42,393 nucleotides of DNA from Actinomycetota bacterium (GTDB lineage: Bacteria > Actinomycetota > CADDZG01 > JAHWKV01 > JAOPZY01). Positions 1,058-29,222 of the stretch are shown here, piece after piece. How positions within the stretch are numbered: position 1 is the first letter of the stretch; the number at the start of each line of letters is the position of its first letter. The notes beneath the pieces were generated by a model. The model saw only the letters and a program-made list of their open reading frames with translations, searched no databases and was not told the DNA's origin. The stretch lies in NCBI GenBank assembly GCA_035765775.1, contig DASTWV010000025.1:1-42393 (forward strand). Reading direction: 5' to 3'. Made by a program: the position numbers and the translations under genes.

Positions 1058-1702
1058 TTATCGCGGTTGGGTTCCCTTAGTCGCACTCGGAAGTTTCCAT
1101 TCCCCCGCTGGAACCATTCTGTGCCCCCTTGTGCGTGGATCGCCCTGGTTGAAGGCCTCCCACCAGCGCCGTCCCCCGGCAGCCACCTCCGTGAGGTCCC
1201 GGGGCCTCCAGTCATAGTCGAACGCCGCAAGTCTCTGGAACCAGATGCGCAGGTCCAGATGGCGAAGCGGACCGCCCAGGCTCTCCTGGAACAGGTCGAG
1301 GACGTGGAGGCCTTCGCATGCTCCGAGGTGCACGTCGAGGCTGAACCGGCCTCGCCAGTGGTCCCAGCTGCTGCGGCTGTCGAGGAATTCCCAGCCGTAG
1401 ATCGGCTGCCCCCCAAAGCTGGAGACCACGTCGCCCAATTGATCGAGCTCGAGGGGCTCCGCTGGAGCGCCTTCGTCGTTCCAGTGGCCTGGCCGGAGGG
1501 AGGCCGCCACCCGGGCGACGCCGGAGAGCAGCAGGAGCAACCGCGGGTCCTCCGGCTCCGGGCCGGCCTCGGGCAGAGTCAGGACACTGAGGAGAACTGC
1601 GGCCTCCCCCCGGTCTGCCCTCACCGTGACATCGTGAAGCCTGCTCTCGTTCATCGCGACGTTGAGGTCGGCCAGGAGCCGCGGGGTCAGCTCGGTACCC
1701 AT
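1058..1702 (-). CDS. Uncharacterised 214-residue protein
   Basis: I do not recognise this family. The ATG at 1702 is preferred to one 48 bases upstream because the extra residues are a low-complexity basic stretch overlapping the upstream gene. The protein is soluble-looking, without signal peptide or membrane segment, and rich in Trp and Asp in its second half (for example FDYDWRPRDL and GGRRWWEAFNQGD). It has alternating hydrophobic residues suggesting a mixed alpha/beta fold. It lies between the RibD-like and MDMPI-like genes on the same strand with short gaps, consistent with one transcript. Codon use matches the neighbours, so it is probably expressed. Confidence 0.6.
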   Translation of the reverse strand: MGTELTPRLLADLNVAMNESRLHDVTVRADRGEAAVLLSVLTLPEAGPEPEDPRLLLLLSGVARVAASLRPGHWNDEGAPAEPLELDQLGDVVSSFGGQPIYGWEFLDSRSSWDHWRGRFSLDVHLGACEGLHVLDLFQESLGGPLRHLDLRIWFQRLAAFDYDWRPRDLTEVAAGGRRWWEAFNQGDPRTRGHRMVPAGEWKLPSATKGTQPR

Positions 1703-1746
1703 TGGCTCATCTTCGCACCGGGAAGGCCTCCGCTGTCCCTTGCGGG

Positions 1747-2328
1747 TCACCTACGTACCCGGTAGCGGATATGGGTCGCCTCCGGCGTGTCGATCACCCG
1801 GGCGATCTCCAGCTCGATGCGCGACGGCAGAACGTCGAACATCCTGCGGCCACTGCCAAACAGCACCGGGACATGGGAGATCAGCAGCTCGTCCAGCACC
1901 CCGGCCTCCAAAGCCCGCTGCGCTGTGTACGCCCCGTGCACCAGCACATCCCGGTCCCCGGCCGCAGCCTTGGCCTGCGCCATCGCGCTCCCGATCCCAT
2001 CGAGCACGTAGGTGACCAGCGGGTAGCCCGCCACCGAGGGCCCGGGGGGCCGGTGGCTGGGCACGAAGATCGGGACCCCGTGGTGGTTGCCTTCCCAGTG
2101 GTCCACTTGCTCGACGGTCCGCCGACCGGCAAGCACTGCACCGCAGGTATTGACCCAGTCGATCAGCTCCCCCGCCGGCCCGGAGGGCCGGAAGATCTCG
2201 TCGTCGCCGTTCACGAACCACTCATGGAGGCGGCCGAAGCCGTCGCCCCCGGGATTGCCCGGTGCATCGTTGGGGCCGGCGATGTAGCCATCCAGCGACA
2301 TCGCCATGTAGAGCACGGACGTGGCCAT
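1747..2328 (-). CDS. Dihydrofolate reductase-family protein (RibD C-terminal domain)
   Basis: This 193-residue protein belongs to the bacterial RibD_C/DHFR-like reductases, which use the NADPH-binding DHFR fold on pteridine- or pyrimidine-type substrates. The signature MAMSLDGYIAG at the N-terminus is characteristic. LIDWVNTCGAVLAGRRTVEQ, the VPIFVPSHRPPG segment and VHGAYTAQRALEAGVLDELL (the nucleotide-binding half) follow in the usual order. The length is typical of the stand-alone family, and the true substrate of most members is unknown. The start is well fixed: an AAGGAGG ribosome-binding site lies 5 bases before the ATG at 2328. It is the first gene of the short minus-strand group that continues with the unknown protein and the MDMPI-like protein. 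Confidence 0.85.
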   Translation of the reverse strand: MATSVLYMAMSLDGYIAGPNDAPGNPGGDGFGRLHEWFVNGDDEIFRPSGPAGELIDWVNTCGAVLAGRRTVEQVDHWEGNHHGVPIFVPSHRPPGPSVAGYPLVTYVLDGIGSAMAQAKAAAGDRDVLVHGAYTAQRALEAGVLDELLISHVPVLFGSGRRMFDVLPSRIELEIARVIDTPEATHIRYRVRR

Positions 2329-3015: not shown

Positions 3016-3261
3016 CCCGTCGAAGACGCAGACGGGGGGCAGCCGCCCGAGTTCCGCGTCATCTCCAAAAATCCCCCGCCCACCTCCAGCCTGCCAGGAC
3101 GGCTGTATGGGTGTCCACCGACCCGGGCACTTGGGCCGTGCCCGCGTCCCGCACCAGCAGACAGCAGCAAGCTCGCCGAGCGAGTCCGTCTCGGCGAGCC
3201 CCCGCTGCTCGGCCACCGAGGTTCCCCGAACCCACGCCGCCGCCGTAATAAGGTCGGAACC

Positions 3262-4314
3262 GTGGACGCTCCGACCCTGCCCGCCCTGGCCGATGACTGG
3301 ATCCGCTTCAAGCGCACCCGGACCCGGCGGGGCCTGTCGGTCGCCTCCGAGGCGGCCTACCGGTCGGACCTGGCGGCCATTGCCCGGCGGGTCGCCGACG
3401 ACCTGGGGAAGCCGGTACCCGAGCCCAAGGGCGACGCCGGCGCAGGCGCCGCAGATCCCCTCACGCGCCTCGGCCTGGAGGACCTCACCGAGGACGCCCT
3501 CGGCGACGCCTTCGCCGCCCTGGTGGAGGAGGGCTACGCCGCATCCAGCCGGGCCCGCATGCTGTCCGCCTGGCGGGGCTGGTGCCGGTGGCTCGCCCGC
3601 AGCGGGCACCTGAGCGTCGACCCGACGACCGCGCTCGAGACCCCGGCGGCGAGGGCGGTGGCGGGCGATGCCGACATCTACTTCAGCCCGGGCGAGCTGG
3701 CCCGCATCGTCGAGGTGGTGGCCCTGCCCGACGAGCGGGAGGGCGAGCCGTGGCCCGAGCGGGACCTCGCCCTGGTGGCGCTGCTGGGCGGCGCCGGCGC
3801 CCGGGCGTCGGAGGTCATCGAGGCCCGCGTCGGGGCCCTGCGCACCGAGAACGACAGCGACACCTTCCACGTCGTGGGCAAGGGCGGCAAGCGCCGGACC
3901 ATCCCGGTGGCCCCCGAGGTAGTCGCCACCGTCCGGCGCTACCTCGTGACCCGGGAGACCCGCCTGGGGGCCGCCGGGGCCTCGGACCGGCTGTTCGTCC
4001 GGGCGGACGGGCGCCCGTTCAACCGCCAGTCCCTCGACTACCTGGTGGGCAAGTGGCTGCGCCGGGCGGGGGTATCGCTCCGGCCGGGCGAGCTCGCCCA
4101 CGCCTTCCGCCACACCTACGCCGTCCACCTGGTCCAGATGGGCGTGCCGCTCCCCCAGGTCCAGCAGTTGCTCGGGCACGCCAGCCTGACCACCACCTCC
4201 CGCTACCTGCGGATGACCGGCGCCGAACTGCACGAAGCCGCCCTGGTCCTGCCCCTCCGGCGCTTCCTGGCCGGCCACTCCGCCGCCGCGGTACCCCCTT
4301 ACGACCCAAAGTAG
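3262..4314 (+). CDS. Tyrosine recombinase (XerC/XerD-type integrase)
   Basis: This 350-residue site-specific recombinase has the complete catalytic set of the phage-integrase family: Arg181 (in GARASEV), Lys207/Lys210 (VGKGGKRRT), His280 and Arg283 (LAHAFRHTYAVH), His306 (LLGHASLTTTSRY) and the nucleophile Tyr315. An N-terminal SAM-like core-binding domain covers about residues 8-115. The GTG at 3262 is chosen because upstream sequence in this frame is low-complexity. The short length and the LLGHASLTTTSRY pattern are closest to Xer proteins, which resolve chromosome dimers at dif, rather than to large phage integrases. However, the gene sits between a broken gene and a membrane-peptide gene, away from the usual Xer neighbours. 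No att or dif site could be recognised, so an element-borne integrase remains possible. Confidence 0.85.
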   Translation: MDAPTLPALADDWIRFKRTRTRRGLSVASEAAYRSDLAAIARRVADDLGKPVPEPKGDAGAGAADPLTRLGLEDLTEDALGDAFAALVEEGYAASSRARMLSAWRGWCRWLARSGHLSVDPTTALETPAARAVAGDADIYFSPGELARIVEVVALPDEREGEPWPERDLALVALLGGAGARASEVIEARVGALRTENDSDTFHVVGKGGKRRTIPVAPEVVATVRRYLVTRETRLGAAGASDRLFVRADGRPFNRQSLDYLVGKWLRRAGVSLRPGELAHAFRHTYAVHLVQMGVPLPQVQQLLGHASLTTTSRYLRMTGAELHEAALVLPLRRFLAGHSAAAVPPYDPK

Positions 4315-6590: not shown

Positions 6591-7154
6591 ATGACGCTGC
6601 GCGCGGGTTCGAAGGGGAGAAGCCGGTGGCTGGTAGGCGGGTGCCTGGGGGCCGCCGCGGTGCTGGCCCTGGCGGCGTGCGGGAAGAAGACCACGGGGGC
6701 GACCGGGTCCGCCTCCTCCTCCAACCCCGACGCCGACATCACCGTGATGGCCACCAACGTCCCCGGGGTCGGGACCGTGCTGGTGAACGGCAACGGCAGG
6801 ACCCTGTACATCCTCACATCGGAGGCGGGCGGCAAGGTCACCTGCACCGACGCAAACAACTGCACCAAGGCCTGGCCCGACACCGAGCTGCCCTCCGGTA
6901 TGACGGCCGGCATTGCGGGCAGTGGGATCCAGACCTCGATGCTCAGCACCACCAAGGGCCCCACCGGCGATTCCTACGTCACCTACGCCGGCTACCCGCT
7001 CTACACCTTCAGCGGCGACAGCGGCAACGGCATGGCGCACGGCCAGAACATCACGAGCTTCGGCGGGACGTGGGAGACGATGAAGCCCAATGGCACCCCG
7101 GTGACCGGCCCGGCGACCACCACCAGCTCGAACAGCAATTCCGGCGGGTACTAG
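6591..7154 (+). CDS. Secreted-repeat lipoprotein (PF03640-type)
   Basis: The 187-residue product begins with a lipoprotein signal peptide (basic start, hydrophobic core, lipobox LAAC with Cys30). It then carries two units of the bacterial 'secreted repeat of unknown function'. The first contains TLYILTSEAGGKVTC and a C-x5-C-x-KAWP element (about residues 64-100). The second contains VTYAGYPLYTFSGDSGNG and a TWETMKPNG end (about 129-170). The two cysteines in the first repeat could form a disulphide. The C-terminus is a Thr/Ser/Gly/Asn tail. The start at 6591 follows a purine-rich AAGGAAGGAAGG site. Proteins of this type are surface-anchored and sometimes lie near redox or electron-transfer genes, but their role is unknown. 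Confidence 0.85.
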   Translation: MTLRAGSKGRSRWLVGGCLGAAAVLALAACGKKTTGATGSASSSNPDADITVMATNVPGVGTVLVNGNGRTLYILTSEAGGKVTCTDANNCTKAWPDTELPSGMTAGIAGSGIQTSMLSTTKGPTGDSYVTYAGYPLYTFSGDSGNGMAHGQNITSFGGTWETMKPNGTPVTGPATTTSSNSNSGGY

Positions 7155-7177
7155 CGGGTACTAGATGCCGGGTACTA
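7146..7177. repeat. Three copies of GGGTACTA at gene ends
   Basis: GGGTACTA occurs at 7146-7153, 7156-7163 and 7170-7177. The first copy supplies the stop of the secreted-repeat lipoprotein and the last supplies, on the other strand, the stop of the small Pro-rich gene. The arrangement is probably a small local duplication; no regulatory meaning is visible. Confidence 0.7.
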
Positions 7178-7351
7178 ACTCCTGGGGGTCCGTGCCCGGG
7201 CGGTTTCCACCAGGACCGCGGGCGGCGGTGTGCGCGCCGGCCTGCGGTCCTGGTGCGGCCGGGCGTAGTAGTCGAGGTTCGGGGGCTCCTCGGGAGGCGG
7301 TTCGGTGTGCGGCGGGGATGCCGGCGGGCTGGGGCGGCGGAAGCGTCTCAT
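7175..7351 (-). CDS. Small proline/arginine-rich protein, 58 residues
   Basis: An ATG at 7351 follows a strong AAGGAGGG ribosome-binding site with 7 bases spacing. The frame encodes 58 residues starting MRRFRRPSPPASPPHTE and rich in Pro, Arg and His, with a central PPNLDYYARPHQDRRP. There is no membrane segment or recognisable domain. The strong ribosome-binding site is the main argument that it is real; the composition suggests a disordered basic peptide. It converges on the secreted-repeat lipoprotein gene. Confidence 0.5.
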   Translation of the reverse strand: MRRFRRPSPPASPPHTEPPPEEPPNLDYYARPHQDRRPARTPPPAVLVETARARTPRS

Positions 7352-7420
7352 GCGAATTCCCTCCTTCAACACTGGAGCTGAAACTGGAGCTGGACCGGAC
7401 TGAGCTGCGAATAGGACAAC

Positions 7421-7446
7421 AAAAAAGGCCGCCCGAAAGGGCGGCC
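7421..7446 (-). terminator. Intrinsic terminator for the SulP gene
   Basis: A perfect 8-bp GC stem (7427-7434 with 7439-7446) and 4-base loop are followed, reading the minus strand, by six T residues (A-run at 7421-7426). This is a textbook rho-independent terminator about 100 bases past the stop of the SulP transporter gene. It also insulates the small Pro-rich gene downstream. Confidence 0.85.
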
Positions 7447-7548
7447 TGCGCATTCCCGCGCGCGGAGCATCAGGCCGCTAGTGCGGCCACCAACCCTGCG
7501 CGGCAGGCGTGATAAGAAGCATGGCCCGAGGATACCGCAGCGGCCGCC

Positions 7549-9258
7549 TCAGGCGTGGGTGGCGCCGGTCAGGGCCACCACCGCCGACTGGACGTCGTCG
7601 TAGACATGCTCCCGCCCGATCGTGGCCAGGAGGTCGCTGTGGCGCAGGTTGCGGCGCACGACCTCCCCGGGCCGGGCCACCCCCACGGCGATGCCCTTGG
7701 CCTGGAGCTCCTTCAGGAGGCCCTCCAGCGCCTGAGCACCCGTGAAGTCGACATCCGGCACCCCGGCAGCGTCGAAGATCAGCACGCGCACCGGCTCCGG
7801 GGCGGTGTTGATGAGGTCCCGCAGGTGCTCGATCAGGTACTGCGCGTTGGCGAACCACAATGGCGCCATGAGCAGGTACACCAGCACGCCGGGCACGTGC
7901 TCGGTCGGATGGCTGGCGTCCACCGGGATCCAATGGTCGGTGCCGGGCTCCCGGCCCATGAGGACCTCCTGGGGGCGGGTGGCCAACCGGGTGCGCTCGG
8001 CGATGGAGAGCACCAGCGCCACCAGCACGCCGGTCTCGATGCCGAAGAAGGCCACGGCGGCGATCGTGACCACGGTCAATCCGAACTCGGCCCTCCCGAA
8101 CCGGTGGATGGCCCGGAGGTCCTGCACGTGCAGGAGCCGGGTCGCCACGTAGAGAAGGATGGCGCCCAGCGTGGCCTGCGGCAGGTCGGCCAGGAGCCCG
8201 GTGGCGAACGCGATCACCGCCAGCGCCCCGGCCGCGGCGACCAGGCTGGCCACCTGCGAGCGCCCCCCCGACGCCTCGACCACCGCCGAGCGGGGCGGGC
8301 TGGAGTCCACCGGGAAGGCTCCCACGCACCCCGCCAGCAGGCTCCCCGCCCCCAGGCCGATGAGGTCCCGGTTGAGGGTGTGGGTGGCCTTCTGGTCGGA
8401 GCCGAGCGACCGGGCGGTGGCGGCGGTCTGCACCACGCACACGAACGCCACGGTGGCCGCGGTGACGGCCAGCTTCACCAGGTCGTGGGCGGGTACCGCG
8501 GGCGGCCCCAGCGGGGGGAGGCCGGCGGGGATCGTGCCCAGCACGTGCACCCCCCGGGCTTTCAGTCCCAGGGCGGCGACCGCGCCGACGGACACCACCA
8601 GGCCGATGAGGGCGCCGGGGACCCGCCGGTCGAGCTTCTCGGCCGCCAGGATGATGGCCAGCACCAGGGCCCCCACCGCCAGTGACCACCCGTTGGTGTG
8701 CGAGAGCTGGTGGGCGATCAGCCGCACCCGGCCGATGGTCGTGGTCCCCCCGCCGGGCAGCCCGAGCACGGCGGGGACCTGGCGCACGACGATCTCCACC
8801 GCAATGCCGGCCAGGATGCCGGTGACCACCGGCGTCGAGATGAAGTCGGCGATCCAGCCCAGCCGGAGCAGGCCGACCGCCAGCAGCACGGCCCCCACGA
8901 TCAGCGCCAGGAAGGTCACCAGGTGCTGGTACTGGGTGGTCCCGGCCACCGCCACCGCCGCTACTCCGGCGGCGAAGACCGGGGCGATCGTTGAGTCCGC
9001 TCCCACCGACATCTGGCGGCTGCCCCCCAGGACGGCGATCATCAGGGACCCGGCCACGAAGGCGTACAGCCCCGTGATGGCGGGCATCACCGCCAGGCGG
9101 GCGGTGGCCATCTGCTCGGGGACGGCGATGGCCAGCAGGGTGAGACCGGCGATGCAGTCGGGTGTCAGCCAGGCGGTCTGGTAGCCCTGAAGGGTGGGCA
9201 GGATCGGAAGGCGCCTGGCGGGCTTCCCCCCGCCCGGCTTGGTCGTTCCCTCCCCCAT
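7549..9258 (-). CDS. SulP-family inorganic anion transporter with STAS domain
   Basis: This 569-residue membrane protein belongs to the SLC26/SulP family, which moves sulfate, bicarbonate or other anions by proton or sodium coupling. The N-terminal half opens with the family pattern DCIAGLTLLAIAVPEQMATARLAVMPAITGLYA, giving 10-14 membrane segments up to about residue 430. A cytoplasmic STAS domain follows (about 450-560), with VRVLIFDAAGVPDVDFTGAQALEGL carrying the conserved beta-strand and loop seen in anti-sigma-antagonist proteins. The length is typical. Substrate cannot be read from sequence, and no carbonic anhydrase or sulfate-assimilation gene adjoins to guide the choice. The start is the ATG at 9258, and the gene is followed by the terminator at 7421-7446. 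Confidence 0.9.
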   Translation of the reverse strand: MGEGTTKPGGGKPARRLPILPTLQGYQTAWLTPDCIAGLTLLAIAVPEQMATARLAVMPAITGLYAFVAGSLMIAVLGGSRQMSVGADSTIAPVFAAGVAAVAVAGTTQYQHLVTFLALIVGAVLLAVGLLRLGWIADFISTPVVTGILAGIAVEIVVRQVPAVLGLPGGGTTTIGRVRLIAHQLSHTNGWSLAVGALVLAIILAAEKLDRRVPGALIGLVVSVGAVAALGLKARGVHVLGTIPAGLPPLGPPAVPAHDLVKLAVTAATVAFVCVVQTAATARSLGSDQKATHTLNRDLIGLGAGSLLAGCVGAFPVDSSPPRSAVVEASGGRSQVASLVAAAGALAVIAFATGLLADLPQATLGAILLYVATRLLHVQDLRAIHRFGRAEFGLTVVTIAAVAFFGIETGVLVALVLSIAERTRLATRPQEVLMGREPGTDHWIPVDASHPTEHVPGVLVYLLMAPLWFANAQYLIEHLRDLINTAPEPVRVLIFDAAGVPDVDFTGAQALEGLLKELQAKGIAVGVARPGEVVRRNLRHSDLLATIGREHVYDDVQSAVVALTGATHA

Positions 9259-26569: not shown

Positions 26570-27124
26570 TTAGGCCATCGCCTGCAGCAGGAGCGGGGCG
26601 AGCTCGAGCATCACCTTGCCGACGGCCTCAAGGATCGCCAGGACATCGGGGGCCTGCGTGACGTCGTTCTCCTGGAACTGGGCACCCGTTTCGTCGATGT
26701 GCAGCGACAACCGCTGGTCGATGTTGCTGGGCAGCTTGACCCGGTTCCCTCCTGGGGTTTTCAGCTCCATCCCGTTCTCGTTGTCCCGGAACTGGAGGGC
26801 GTCATTGTCCCCCTCGCCCACCCGGTTTATCCGCAGGCCCCGGCGGGGCTCGCCCTGGCCGGTCGGCTCGTCCGGCCGCTCCGCTTTGAAGATGACCCGG
26901 CTCCGGTCGATGCCGGCGCTCTTGCCGCCGTCGGGGATGCCGCAGTCCTGGGCCACCACCCGTGACTTCGGGGGGATCCGGAACCACTTCCCCTCGTCGG
27001 GATAGGTCCACTCCGTGACCTTGGGGTAGACCGCGTACCGGCCTTCGTGCATCTCATCCCAGACGTACATGAAGTATGTGTCATTGGAGTTGTTATAAAT
27101 CTCGGTAATCTGTGAAGTTCCCAT
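26570..27124 (-). CDS. Orphan 184-residue protein with atypical composition
   Basis: No family is recognised. The ATG at 27124 follows GGGAGG with 5 bases spacing. The N-terminal 90 residues are rich in Tyr, Asn, Trp and Asp (TEIYNNSNDTYFMYVWDEMH) with alternation typical of a beta-sandwich, as in some lectin- or lysin-like proteins. The middle is hydrophilic (GLRINRVGEGDNDALQFRDN), and the C-terminus is a hydrophobic or amphipathic helix (DVLAILEAVGKVMLELAP). There is no signal peptide. Codons such as ATT, TAT, AAT and ACA are used more than in neighbours, and the upstream region is AT-richer, suggesting recent acquisition. It has its own near-consensus promoter (27227-27254) and a leader of about 95 bases. 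Confidence 0.7.
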   Translation of the reverse strand: MGTSQITEIYNNSNDTYFMYVWDEMHEGRYAVYPKVTEWTYPDEGKWFRIPPKSRVVAQDCGIPDGGKSAGIDRSRVIFKAERPDEPTGQGEPRRGLRINRVGEGDNDALQFRDNENGMELKTPGGNRVKLPSNIDQRLSLHIDETGAQFQENDVTQAPDVLAILEAVGKVMLELAPLLLQAMA

Positions 27125-27226
27125 CACGCCTCCCGATTGGTAGTGGCGAACCCGCATCTGCTGAGAGGAGAAGACCCCGTCGGTTTCTGACGATCCGATA
27201 GATTCCTTCCCTACCTTCGATGATGA

Positions 27227-27254
27227 ATCATATGGGCGTAGCTGGTCGTGTCAA
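27227..27254 (-). promoter_or_regulatory. Near-consensus housekeeping promoter for the 184-residue orphan
   Basis: Reading the minus strand, TTGACA (27254-27249) and TATGAT (27232-27227) are separated by 16 bases, one mismatch from the sigma-70/HrdB-type consensus. Transcription would start near 27220, giving a leader of about 95 bases before the ATG at 27124. It is the strongest promoter-like match seen in the window. Confidence 0.7.
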
Positions 27255-27421: not shown

Positions 27422-28723
27422 TTGTCTCCCCTCGCACGTCCCCTCGCAGGCCATCGCATGGTCAGACCGTTCATCGCCACACTGGCCGCCGGGACGCTGG
27501 TCCTCGCCGCCTGTTCCACGAGCACCAACACCTCGTCGGGCTCCAGCACCACCCCCACGCCCGCCGCCTCGGCGTCGGCGCCGGGGTCGGGCACCGCCCC
27601 GGTGGTCGACAGCGCGGCCGCCAACCTCCGGGTGACGGTCAACCTCCTCCTCGGTGAGCACATCAGCCTCGCCGTCAAGGCGGTGGATGCCGCCCTCAAC
27701 GGCCGCACCCAGGACTTCATGGCCTATGGCACGCAGCTGAACACCAACGGCACCGACATCTGCGGCCTGATCGGCCAGGTCTACGGCGCCGATGCCGGCA
27801 CGTCGTGCAACGGCATCTGGAGCGCCCACGACGGCGACTTCGTCGAGTACACCCAGGGTCTGGCCGCCAACGACAGCGCCAAGAAGGCCGACGCGGTCAA
27901 CCTGCTGACCACCCAGTACATCCCGCAGTTCTCCAACCTGGTCGCGGGCGCCACCGGACTGCCGACGGCCACGGTGACCAGCCTGATCACCGACCACATC
28001 ATGACCACCAAGGCGGTCGTCGACGATCTCGGCGCCAAGAACTACACCCAGGCCGCCACCGACCTGCGCAAGGCCTACGCCCACATGGAGATGATCGCCG
28101 ACCCGCTCGCCGAGGCGATCGCCGCCCAGCACGCCGGCACCTTCCCCGGTGATCCCAAGAACGCCGGCGTCAGCTTCCGGGTGGCCCTGAACAACCTGCT
28201 GCAGGAGCACGTCTACCTGGCGACCTCGGCCACCCAGGACGCCCTGATCGGCAACAGCGCCGAGTTCATGGCGCTCGGCAACGCCCTCAACACCAACGGC
28301 ACCGACCTGGGTTCCGCCATCGGCCAGATCTACGGCGCCTCGGCGCAGACCGCCTTCAATGGCATCTGGAGCGCCCACAACGCCGACTTCGTCGAGTACA
28401 CCCAGGGCCTGGCGGCCGGCGACAGCGCCAAGCAGGCCGACGCCGTCAACCTGCTGACCACGCAGTATCTCCCGCAGTTCGCCAGCTTCCTGGCGACGCC
28501 CACCGGAGTCCCGACCGCCACGCTGACCTCGCTGATCAGCGACCACATCACGACTACCAAGGCCGTCGTCGACGCCCAGGGTGCTGACGCCAAGACCTCC
28601 ACCGCCGCCACCGCCTCGGCCATCGCCACCGCCGACCGTATGGCCGGCAAGCACATGGAGATGATCGGCGACCCGCTCGCCAAGGCCATCGTCAACAGCC
28701 AGCCGGCGAAGTTCCAGGGCTAA
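27422..28723 (+). CDS. Lipoprotein with two copies of a four-histidine helical domain
   Basis: The 433-residue exported lipoprotein (lipobox LAAC, Cys31; Ser/Thr/Pro linker to about 60) consists of two homologous helical domains, about 69-241 and 252-433. Each carries the same four His sites: LLxEH (H80/H263), WSAH (H136/H319), LIxDH (H192/H375) and HMEMI (H221/H411). The first three pairs are exactly 183 residues apart. Segments such as FVEYTQGLAA and ADAVNLLTTQY are identical in both copies. A His on each of four helices suggests a metal- or cofactor-binding four-helix bundle, which is inference. The start is a TTG placed 7-8 bases after AAAAGGAG. A type-1 copper protein gene follows 64 bases downstream, so a copper or electron-transfer role is the leading idea. 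I recall no named family with certainty. Confidence 0.85.
   Translation: MSPLARPLAGHRMVRPFIATLAAGTLVLAACSTSTNTSSGSSTTPTPAASASAPGSGTAPVVDSAAANLRVTVNLLLGEHISLAVKAVDAALNGRTQDFMAYGTQLNTNGTDICGLIGQVYGADAGTSCNGIWSAHDGDFVEYTQGLAANDSAKKADAVNLLTTQYIPQFSNLVAGATGLPTATVTSLITDHIMTTKAVVDDLGAKNYTQAATDLRKAYAHMEMIADPLAEAIAAQHAGTFPGDPKNAGVSFRVALNNLLQEHVYLATSATQDALIGNSAEFMALGNALNTNGTDLGSAIGQIYGASAQTAFNGIWSAHNADFVEYTQGLAAGDSAKQADAVNLLTTQYLPQFASFLATPTGVPTATLTSLISDHITTTKAVVDAQGADAKTSTAATASAIATADRMAGKHMEMIGDPLAKAIVNSQPAKFQG
27626..28720 (+). repeat. Internal duplication (549-bp period) in the lipoprotein gene
   Basis: Codons for residues 69-241 and 252-433 of the lipoprotein are homologous at DNA level. Around 27811-27917 and 28360-28466 the two copies match over roughly 100 bases with few, mostly synonymous, changes. 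The period is 549 bp through most of the length; the second copy carries a 7-codon insertion before the last His motif. This indicates a fairly recent duplication or gene conversion. Confidence 0.85.
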
Positions 28724-28787
28724 AGCCACCCAGGAACCGCTGACCGGACCGCTACCGAACCGCTGACGGAAACTCGAGGAGAAAGCC

Positions 28788-29222
28788 ATGAAAGAGCACC
28801 CAGCCTGCCCACACCAGAGCCGGTCGTTCGCCCGCCTGTTCGTCACGCCGGCGCTCGCGGTGCTGGTGTTGGGCGTGCTGGGCGCGTGCTCGGGCAAGAC
28901 CACCGCCGGCACGGCGCCCAGCACCCCCGCTGCCTCGCAGCAGGCGGCCGCCACCACCGTCCAGATCGTGGCGGACCCCAACACCATCGGGGCCTACAGC
29001 CCGCCGACGGTGACCGTCTCCGCCGGCCAGACCGTGAAGTGGGTCTTCGAGGGCCCGATCCCCCACACCGTGACCGCCGATGACAACAGCTTCAGCTCGG
29101 GCGGCGTCGCAGACGGCTTCGCCAATGGGCAGACCTACACCCACACCTTCGCGACCGCCGGGAGCTACCCCTACCACTGCGCGATCCACCCGCAGATGCA
29201 CGGGACGGTGGTCGTCCAGTAG
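28788..29222 (+). CDS. Cupredoxin-type blue-copper lipoprotein
   Basis: The 144-residue protein has a signal peptide with lipobox (VLGAC, Cys34), a short Thr/Ala/Ser linker and a plastocyanin/azurin-like domain at 55-144. The type-1 copper ligands are all visible: His93 (PIPHTVTADD), then Cys131, His134 and Met137 in YHCAIHPQMHG. It should carry one electron at the outer surface of the membrane. The ATG is preceded by GAGGAGAAAGCC. It is immediately downstream of the duplicated four-His lipoprotein in the same direction with a 64-base gap and no terminator between, so they are probably co-transcribed and may interact. No oxidase or cytochrome gene is in the window to name the redox partner. 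Confidence 0.92.
   Translation: MKEHPACPHQSRSFARLFVTPALAVLVLGVLGACSGKTTAGTAPSTPAASQQAAATTVQIVADPNTIGAYSPPTVTVSAGQTVKWVFEGPIPHTVTADDNSFSSGGVADGFANGQTYTHTFATAGSYPYHCAIHPQMHGTVVVQ

Follow-up and report, generated by a model that had tools for sequence, protein, structure and literature searches.

A duplicated four-histidine helical lipoprotein encoded beside a type-1 cupredoxin: a candidate surface metal- or electron-handling pair

In a 42,393-nucleotide stretch of DNA from an Actinomycetota bacterium (contig DASTWV010000025.1; hereafter the window), the gene of a duplicated, helical lipoprotein is followed directly by that of a type-1 cupredoxin lipoprotein. The helical gene stays beside a cupredoxin gene across many bacterial families, which makes it probable that the two are an undescribed pair handling metal or electrons. 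On balance we lean toward the helical protein being a surface metalloprotein of two bundles, with copper as the likeliest metal, that exchanges electrons or copper with the cupredoxin.

The helical lipoprotein precursor (433 aa; 27422..28723, plus strand) is recognised by its open reading frame and lipobox, and comprises two domains of six predicted helices each. Its start is the TTG at 27422, which has AAAGGAG upstream, with an ATG at 27458 as the alternative. The lipobox LVLAAC, behind a hydrophobic signal, places the predicted lipidation site at Cys31 (27512..27514, plus strand; TTG numbering), and the cupredoxin carries GVLGAC, so that both proteins have the N-terminal signal and Cys of lipoproteins. 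A Ser/Thr/Ala/Pro linker separates Cys31 of the helical protein from its first repeat. The initial annotation had described two repeats of about 183 residues in this gene, and the duplication, coordinates and reading frame all check out: domain 1 spans V61–G243 (27602..28150, plus strand), and domain 2, about 60% identical to it, spans D244–G433 (28151..28720, plus strand). Two observations support the predicted surface location: the lipoboxes in this locus and the sortase genes that neighbour other members of the family. On the minus strand, at 27254–27227, a promoter-like TTGACA-16-TATGAT (11/12) lies upstream of a divergent unknown gene (26570–27157).

Each repeat is itself composed of three homologous α-hairpins of about 57 residues, as found by hhalign on the domain profile cut in thirds (E 7.7e-9, 6.5e-6 and 2.2e-4). 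The hairpins are in register: helix 1 of each bears H80, H136 or H192, and helix 2 bears N109, Y166 or H221. An AlphaFold (AF2) model of domain 1 (m3c3e420b2e81), built from a four-row alignment, has exactly six helices (pLDDT 86.5, pTM 0.78), and the four His fall in separate helices (A, C, E and F), as had been proposed. In this model the site residues H80, N109, H136, Y166, H192 and H221 occupy positions 19, 48, 75, 105, 131 and 160, all mid-helix; each is 14–16 residues from the nearest hairpin loop, and all six would therefore lie at one height. The full-length two-domain model is weaker (pLDDT 68). The independent predicted structures of two viral proteins described below share the fold (TM 0.84–0.86) and thus support the domain model. 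Furthermore, three cupredoxin-linked members (L072, L074 and L075) are natural circular permutants, in which helix F and its His stand at the N-terminus and the C-terminal helix is missing, an arrangement suggesting that the two termini lie near each other.

In a hydrophobic-moment analysis, the first three His positions (H1, H2 and H3) deviate from the hydrophobic centre by 14, 39 and 48 degrees, and the H80, N109, H136, Y166 and H192 columns together fall within 14–55 degrees of the buried face, whereas most other polar positions are more than 100 degrees away. H221/411, at 108 degrees, lies on the margin of the hydrophobic side, and a three-His site is therefore as likely as a four-His site. 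From the common helix height, the burial of three of the four His and their joint loss in parts of the family, we infer that the His side chains would converge within each bundle.

The four His per repeat are present as originally reported, with H80/263, H136/319 and H192/375 each 183 residues apart; the spacing of 190 for H221/411 is due to a 7-residue insert in domain 2. An acidic or Met neighbour had also been claimed for every His, which holds for seven of the eight and fails for H319, flanked by Ala and Asn. These eight account for all but one of the 9 His in the mature protein. Across the 93 domains collected in the domain profile, His80 (helix A; 27659..27661, plus strand; partner His263, 28208–28210) is conserved in 88 of 91 aligned domains, His136 (helix C; 27827..27829, plus strand; partner His319, 28376–28378) in 77 of 92, His192 (helix E; 27995..27997, plus strand; partner His375, 28544–28546) in 80 of 93 and His221 (helix F; 28082..28084, plus strand; partner His411, 28652–28654) in 58 of 89. 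Asn109 (helix B; 27746..27748, plus strand; partner Asn292), in the same layer as the His, is conserved in 87 of 92, and the Trp133-type residue in 75; overall, Asn109/292, Trp133/316 and Tyr166/349 are conserved about as strongly as the site His. The five closest proteins keep all eight His without exception. Among 21 two-domain homologues (30–69% identity) seven of the eight are invariant, and the 18 with the C-terminal helix at its standard place also retain the eighth. Conservation among homologues, named beforehand as a test of the His pattern, thus held, each His being invariant wherever its helix exists, and the pattern is far beyond chance.

The downstream gene (28788..29222, plus strand) encodes a type-1 cupredoxin lipoprotein of 144 aa with ligands H93, C131, H134 and M137, and matches the plastocyanin/azurin family PF00127 (6e-10) as well as PF13473 (5e-9). 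The copper lipoprotein noted 64 bases downstream is confirmed, with a stop-to-start gap of 64 and all four ligands present, and no terminator-like site was found between the two genes. Across the family, 20 loci have a cupredoxin open reading frame with type-1 ligands within about 100 bp of the family gene: upstream of it in 9, downstream in 9 and divergent in 2. These loci come from 12 taxonomic families within the phylum, plus one Planococcus (Bacillota) plasmid. Conserved pairing with cupredoxins had likewise been set as a test, and adjacency is indeed kept in these loci despite reshuffled gene order, so that the pairing is not inherited synteny alone. With about 15 PF00127 matches in the 3.6 Mb of the window genome, chance would give a cupredoxin neighbour to an estimated 1% or so of genes. 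On the family tree, 7 changes suffice to explain the cupredoxin label, compared with 16.3 for shuffles. Clustering of open reading frames across the 20 loci, whose neighbours are partly annotated, revealed no transporter or oxidase gene that recurs beside the pair. In one locus, L072, two cupredoxin genes (1477–2010, minus strand; 3086–3892, plus strand) flank the family gene on both sides.

The state of the site follows the presence of the partner. In the 19 cupredoxin-linked two-domain proteins the His set is kept in 38 of 38 domains (35 complete HHHH and 3 permuted, with the helix-F His N-terminal), compared with only 20 of 53 domains in other family members. Members lacking a linked cupredoxin have often lost two or three His jointly; the co-loss of H72, H129 and H158 (profile numbering) gives Fisher values of 2e-8 (the H136/H192 columns), 6e-6 and 2e-5, statistics that ignore shared ancestry. 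In L070, the cupredoxin adjoins an intact single-domain gene, and the two-domain gene after that is degenerate. The link between intact His and the cupredoxin bears on the idea that the His are structural, a buried polar layer of a metal-free, oligomeric helical protein. The layer also holds conserved Asn and Tyr, and other members tolerate His loss in one domain, both in agreement with such a role, but it would leave the difference between 38/38 and 20/53 domains unexplained, and we regard it as quite improbable.

A further possibility is that the His ligate haem. Helical bundles with opposed buried His are a classic plan for haem binding, and cytochromes are common partners of cupredoxins. 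The helical protein could accordingly be a b-type haem protein in which His pairs across helices hold the haem and the adjoining cupredoxin is the electron partner. However, two axial His would leave three to four co-conserved His together with Asn and Tyr, in one layer of pseudo-threefold arrangement, unaccounted for, which makes this explanation very improbable.

In the favoured reading, a lipid-anchored surface metalloprotein would be built of two six-helix bundles. The three α-hairpins of each bundle would bring one His each (H80, H136 and H192; H263, H319 and H375) to a single mid-bundle layer, which Asn109, Tyr166 and probably the fourth His (H221; H411) would join, and this layer may form one metal site per domain. 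The surface copper-binding or electron-transfer pair suggested in the initial annotation is plausible on these results and gains partial support from them. Copper would be the most likely metal, given the constant pairing with a copper protein. The neighbouring type-1 cupredoxin lipoprotein would be a dedicated partner, presumably exchanging electrons, which we favour, or copper at the cell surface; both the metal identity and the exchange are what we infer from gene context and residue pattern.

Copper could instead be buffered or detoxified. The helical protein would then act as a copper sponge on the cell surface, with the cupredoxin as a chaperone that binds copper, by analogy with CopM of Synechocystis, a secreted, duplicated (two DUF305 domains) copper binder that contains His and Met (PMC4335983). 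Some homologues indeed have a Met/His-rich linker after the lipobox (4.2% versus 1.5% in control linkers, p=1e-4), whereas the linker of the window protein has neither Met nor His. Furthermore, CopM has an HH motif and many Met, while the His of the window protein are single, one per helix, and its site consists of an invariant geometric set, not of a surface rich in Met. DUF305/CopM (PF03713) does not match the window protein or the 21 homologues, and copper ATPase, RND and copper-sensor genes were not seen recurring among the partly annotated neighbours in the 20 cupredoxin-linked loci. Copper buffering or detoxification thus appears rather unlikely.

The other analogy is with EfeO, which combines a cupredoxin with a duplicated helical M75/imelysin domain, and by which the helical protein might be an uptake receptor for iron or another metal. 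The overall plan is alike, a cupredoxin with a duplicated, all-helical extracytoplasmic domain, and natural circular permutation occurs in both families, being known for imelysins (PMC3143127); in addition, the M75-only EfeM binds Cu, Fe and Zn (PMC9174327). The imelysin domain, however, is a four-helix bundle whose single GxHxxE site region lies at the domain interface, whereas the window protein has six predicted helices and a His layer in each domain. The cupredoxin here is a separate gene with no EfeU or EfeB nearby, and neither was seen recurring in the clustering of partly annotated neighbours across the 20 cupredoxin-linked loci. The imelysin/EfeO (M75) profile PF09375 matched neither the window protein (E<=5) nor its 21 homologues (E<=0.01), and PDB profile and fold searches returned no imelysin at E<=0.001. 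An EfeO-like uptake receptor is therefore improbable.

The helical protein has no real family match in Pfam, NCBIfam, PADLOC or PHROGs, no relative in PDB sequence searches and, with either the domain or the full-length model, no Foldseek match in the PDB at E<=0.001; the second-ranked domain match, above that threshold, was 8qad, a designed antiparallel six-helix barrel. A tape-measure match (TIGR02675, 4.5e-5) was rejected as partial, covering only 52 residues, and AHSP, DUF6981, DinB_2 and other helical Pfam matches were set aside because they are partial, differ among homologues and are mostly below cut-off. The DinB superfamily was also rejected, as the partial matches seen in two of the 21 members scored 21.9 and 16.9 bits and so fell short of the 24.8-bit cut-off. 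The hemerythrin profile matched neither the window protein nor the 21 homologues, and the literature searched nowhere describes a helical protein–cupredoxin pair. The cupredoxin belongs with the plastocyanin/azurin proteins (PF00127), to which the helical protein is unrelated. The helical protein is a member of a family undescribed in the libraries and literature searched.

The family is widespread. A contig scan found one close relative (66% identity) with identical gene order, a profile search of 396 genomes from the same phylum recovered members in 41, and tblastn located members on plasmids from, among others, Planococcus, Priestia, Nocardioides, Methylocystis and Bradyrhizobium. The latter are annotated as 'copper amine oxidase', 'glycosyltransferase' or hypothetical. 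Two 'copper amine oxidases' from Planococcus plasmids (WP_232336900 and WP_065524945) are true homologues, 30–33% identical to the window protein, and the Priestia 'glycosyltransferase' is a distant single-domain homologue. The copper amine oxidase Pfam domain matched neither the window protein nor the Planococcus homologues L047 and L048, and both names are misannotations without profile support.

A second clade adjoins sortase genes, ends in TGGGG or TGxGG and often has one degenerate domain. This C-terminal motif is common to the sortase-adjacent members L073, L076, L078–L080 and L089–L091, as well as L047 and L052; the actinobacterial sortase-adjacent members have no C-terminal membrane helix, and TGGGG/TGxGG, if a sorting signal, would be an unusual one. 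A third clade is cytoplasmic or secreted and of single-domain type, and includes viral members. A scan of viral contigs (IMG/VR) with the single-domain alignment found five loci (L115–L119), while the two-domain alignment gave no match. The 'glycosyl transferase' A0A2H4UVS3 of the giant Bodo saltans virus (TM 0.84, rmsd 2.2 Å) and the Caudovirales protein A0A6J5TA42 (TM 0.86, rmsd 2.0 Å) have the same predicted fold over about 175 residues, and differ from the window protein in being single-domain-sized and viral. These cytoplasmic and viral members keep three His without a cupredoxin, and the site itself therefore need not be for copper.

More tentatively, and with rather less than even confidence, the family may represent a class of metalloprotein not described before. 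Its six-helix bundle would have pseudo-threefold order, each of three hairpins supplying a buried His to a metal site at the centre; duplicated, lipid-anchored and paired with a cupredoxin dedicated to it, this bundle would make up a surface redox system across Actinomycetota and Bacillota, with viral relatives. If so, wrong names would have masked a large family that provides a new scaffold for metal sites, threefold-symmetric within itself, and Gram-positive bacteria would have a copper or redox pair of a new kind at their surface. The residues of the putative site, and the partner of the helical lipoprotein, are now named exactly.

Several loci show further features. ECF sigma factor and/or RskA-type anti-sigma genes lie near five cupredoxin-linked loci (L058, L059, L072, L074 and L075) and one other (L077), hinting at envelope-stress control; the window has no such neighbour. 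On the Planococcus versutus plasmid pPS15-1, the L048 cupredoxin (7080–7589, minus strand) is circularly permuted, with its Cys-His-Met half before the first-His half: PF00127 positions 47–98 align to residues 74–123, followed by PF13473 positions 17–61 at residues 127–169. The window genome (G000) also has two cytoplasmic-type family members truncated at contig ends (C52:26199–27125 and C5:32332–32859), and the C52 copy is directly followed by an AhpC/TSA thioredoxin-fold gene.
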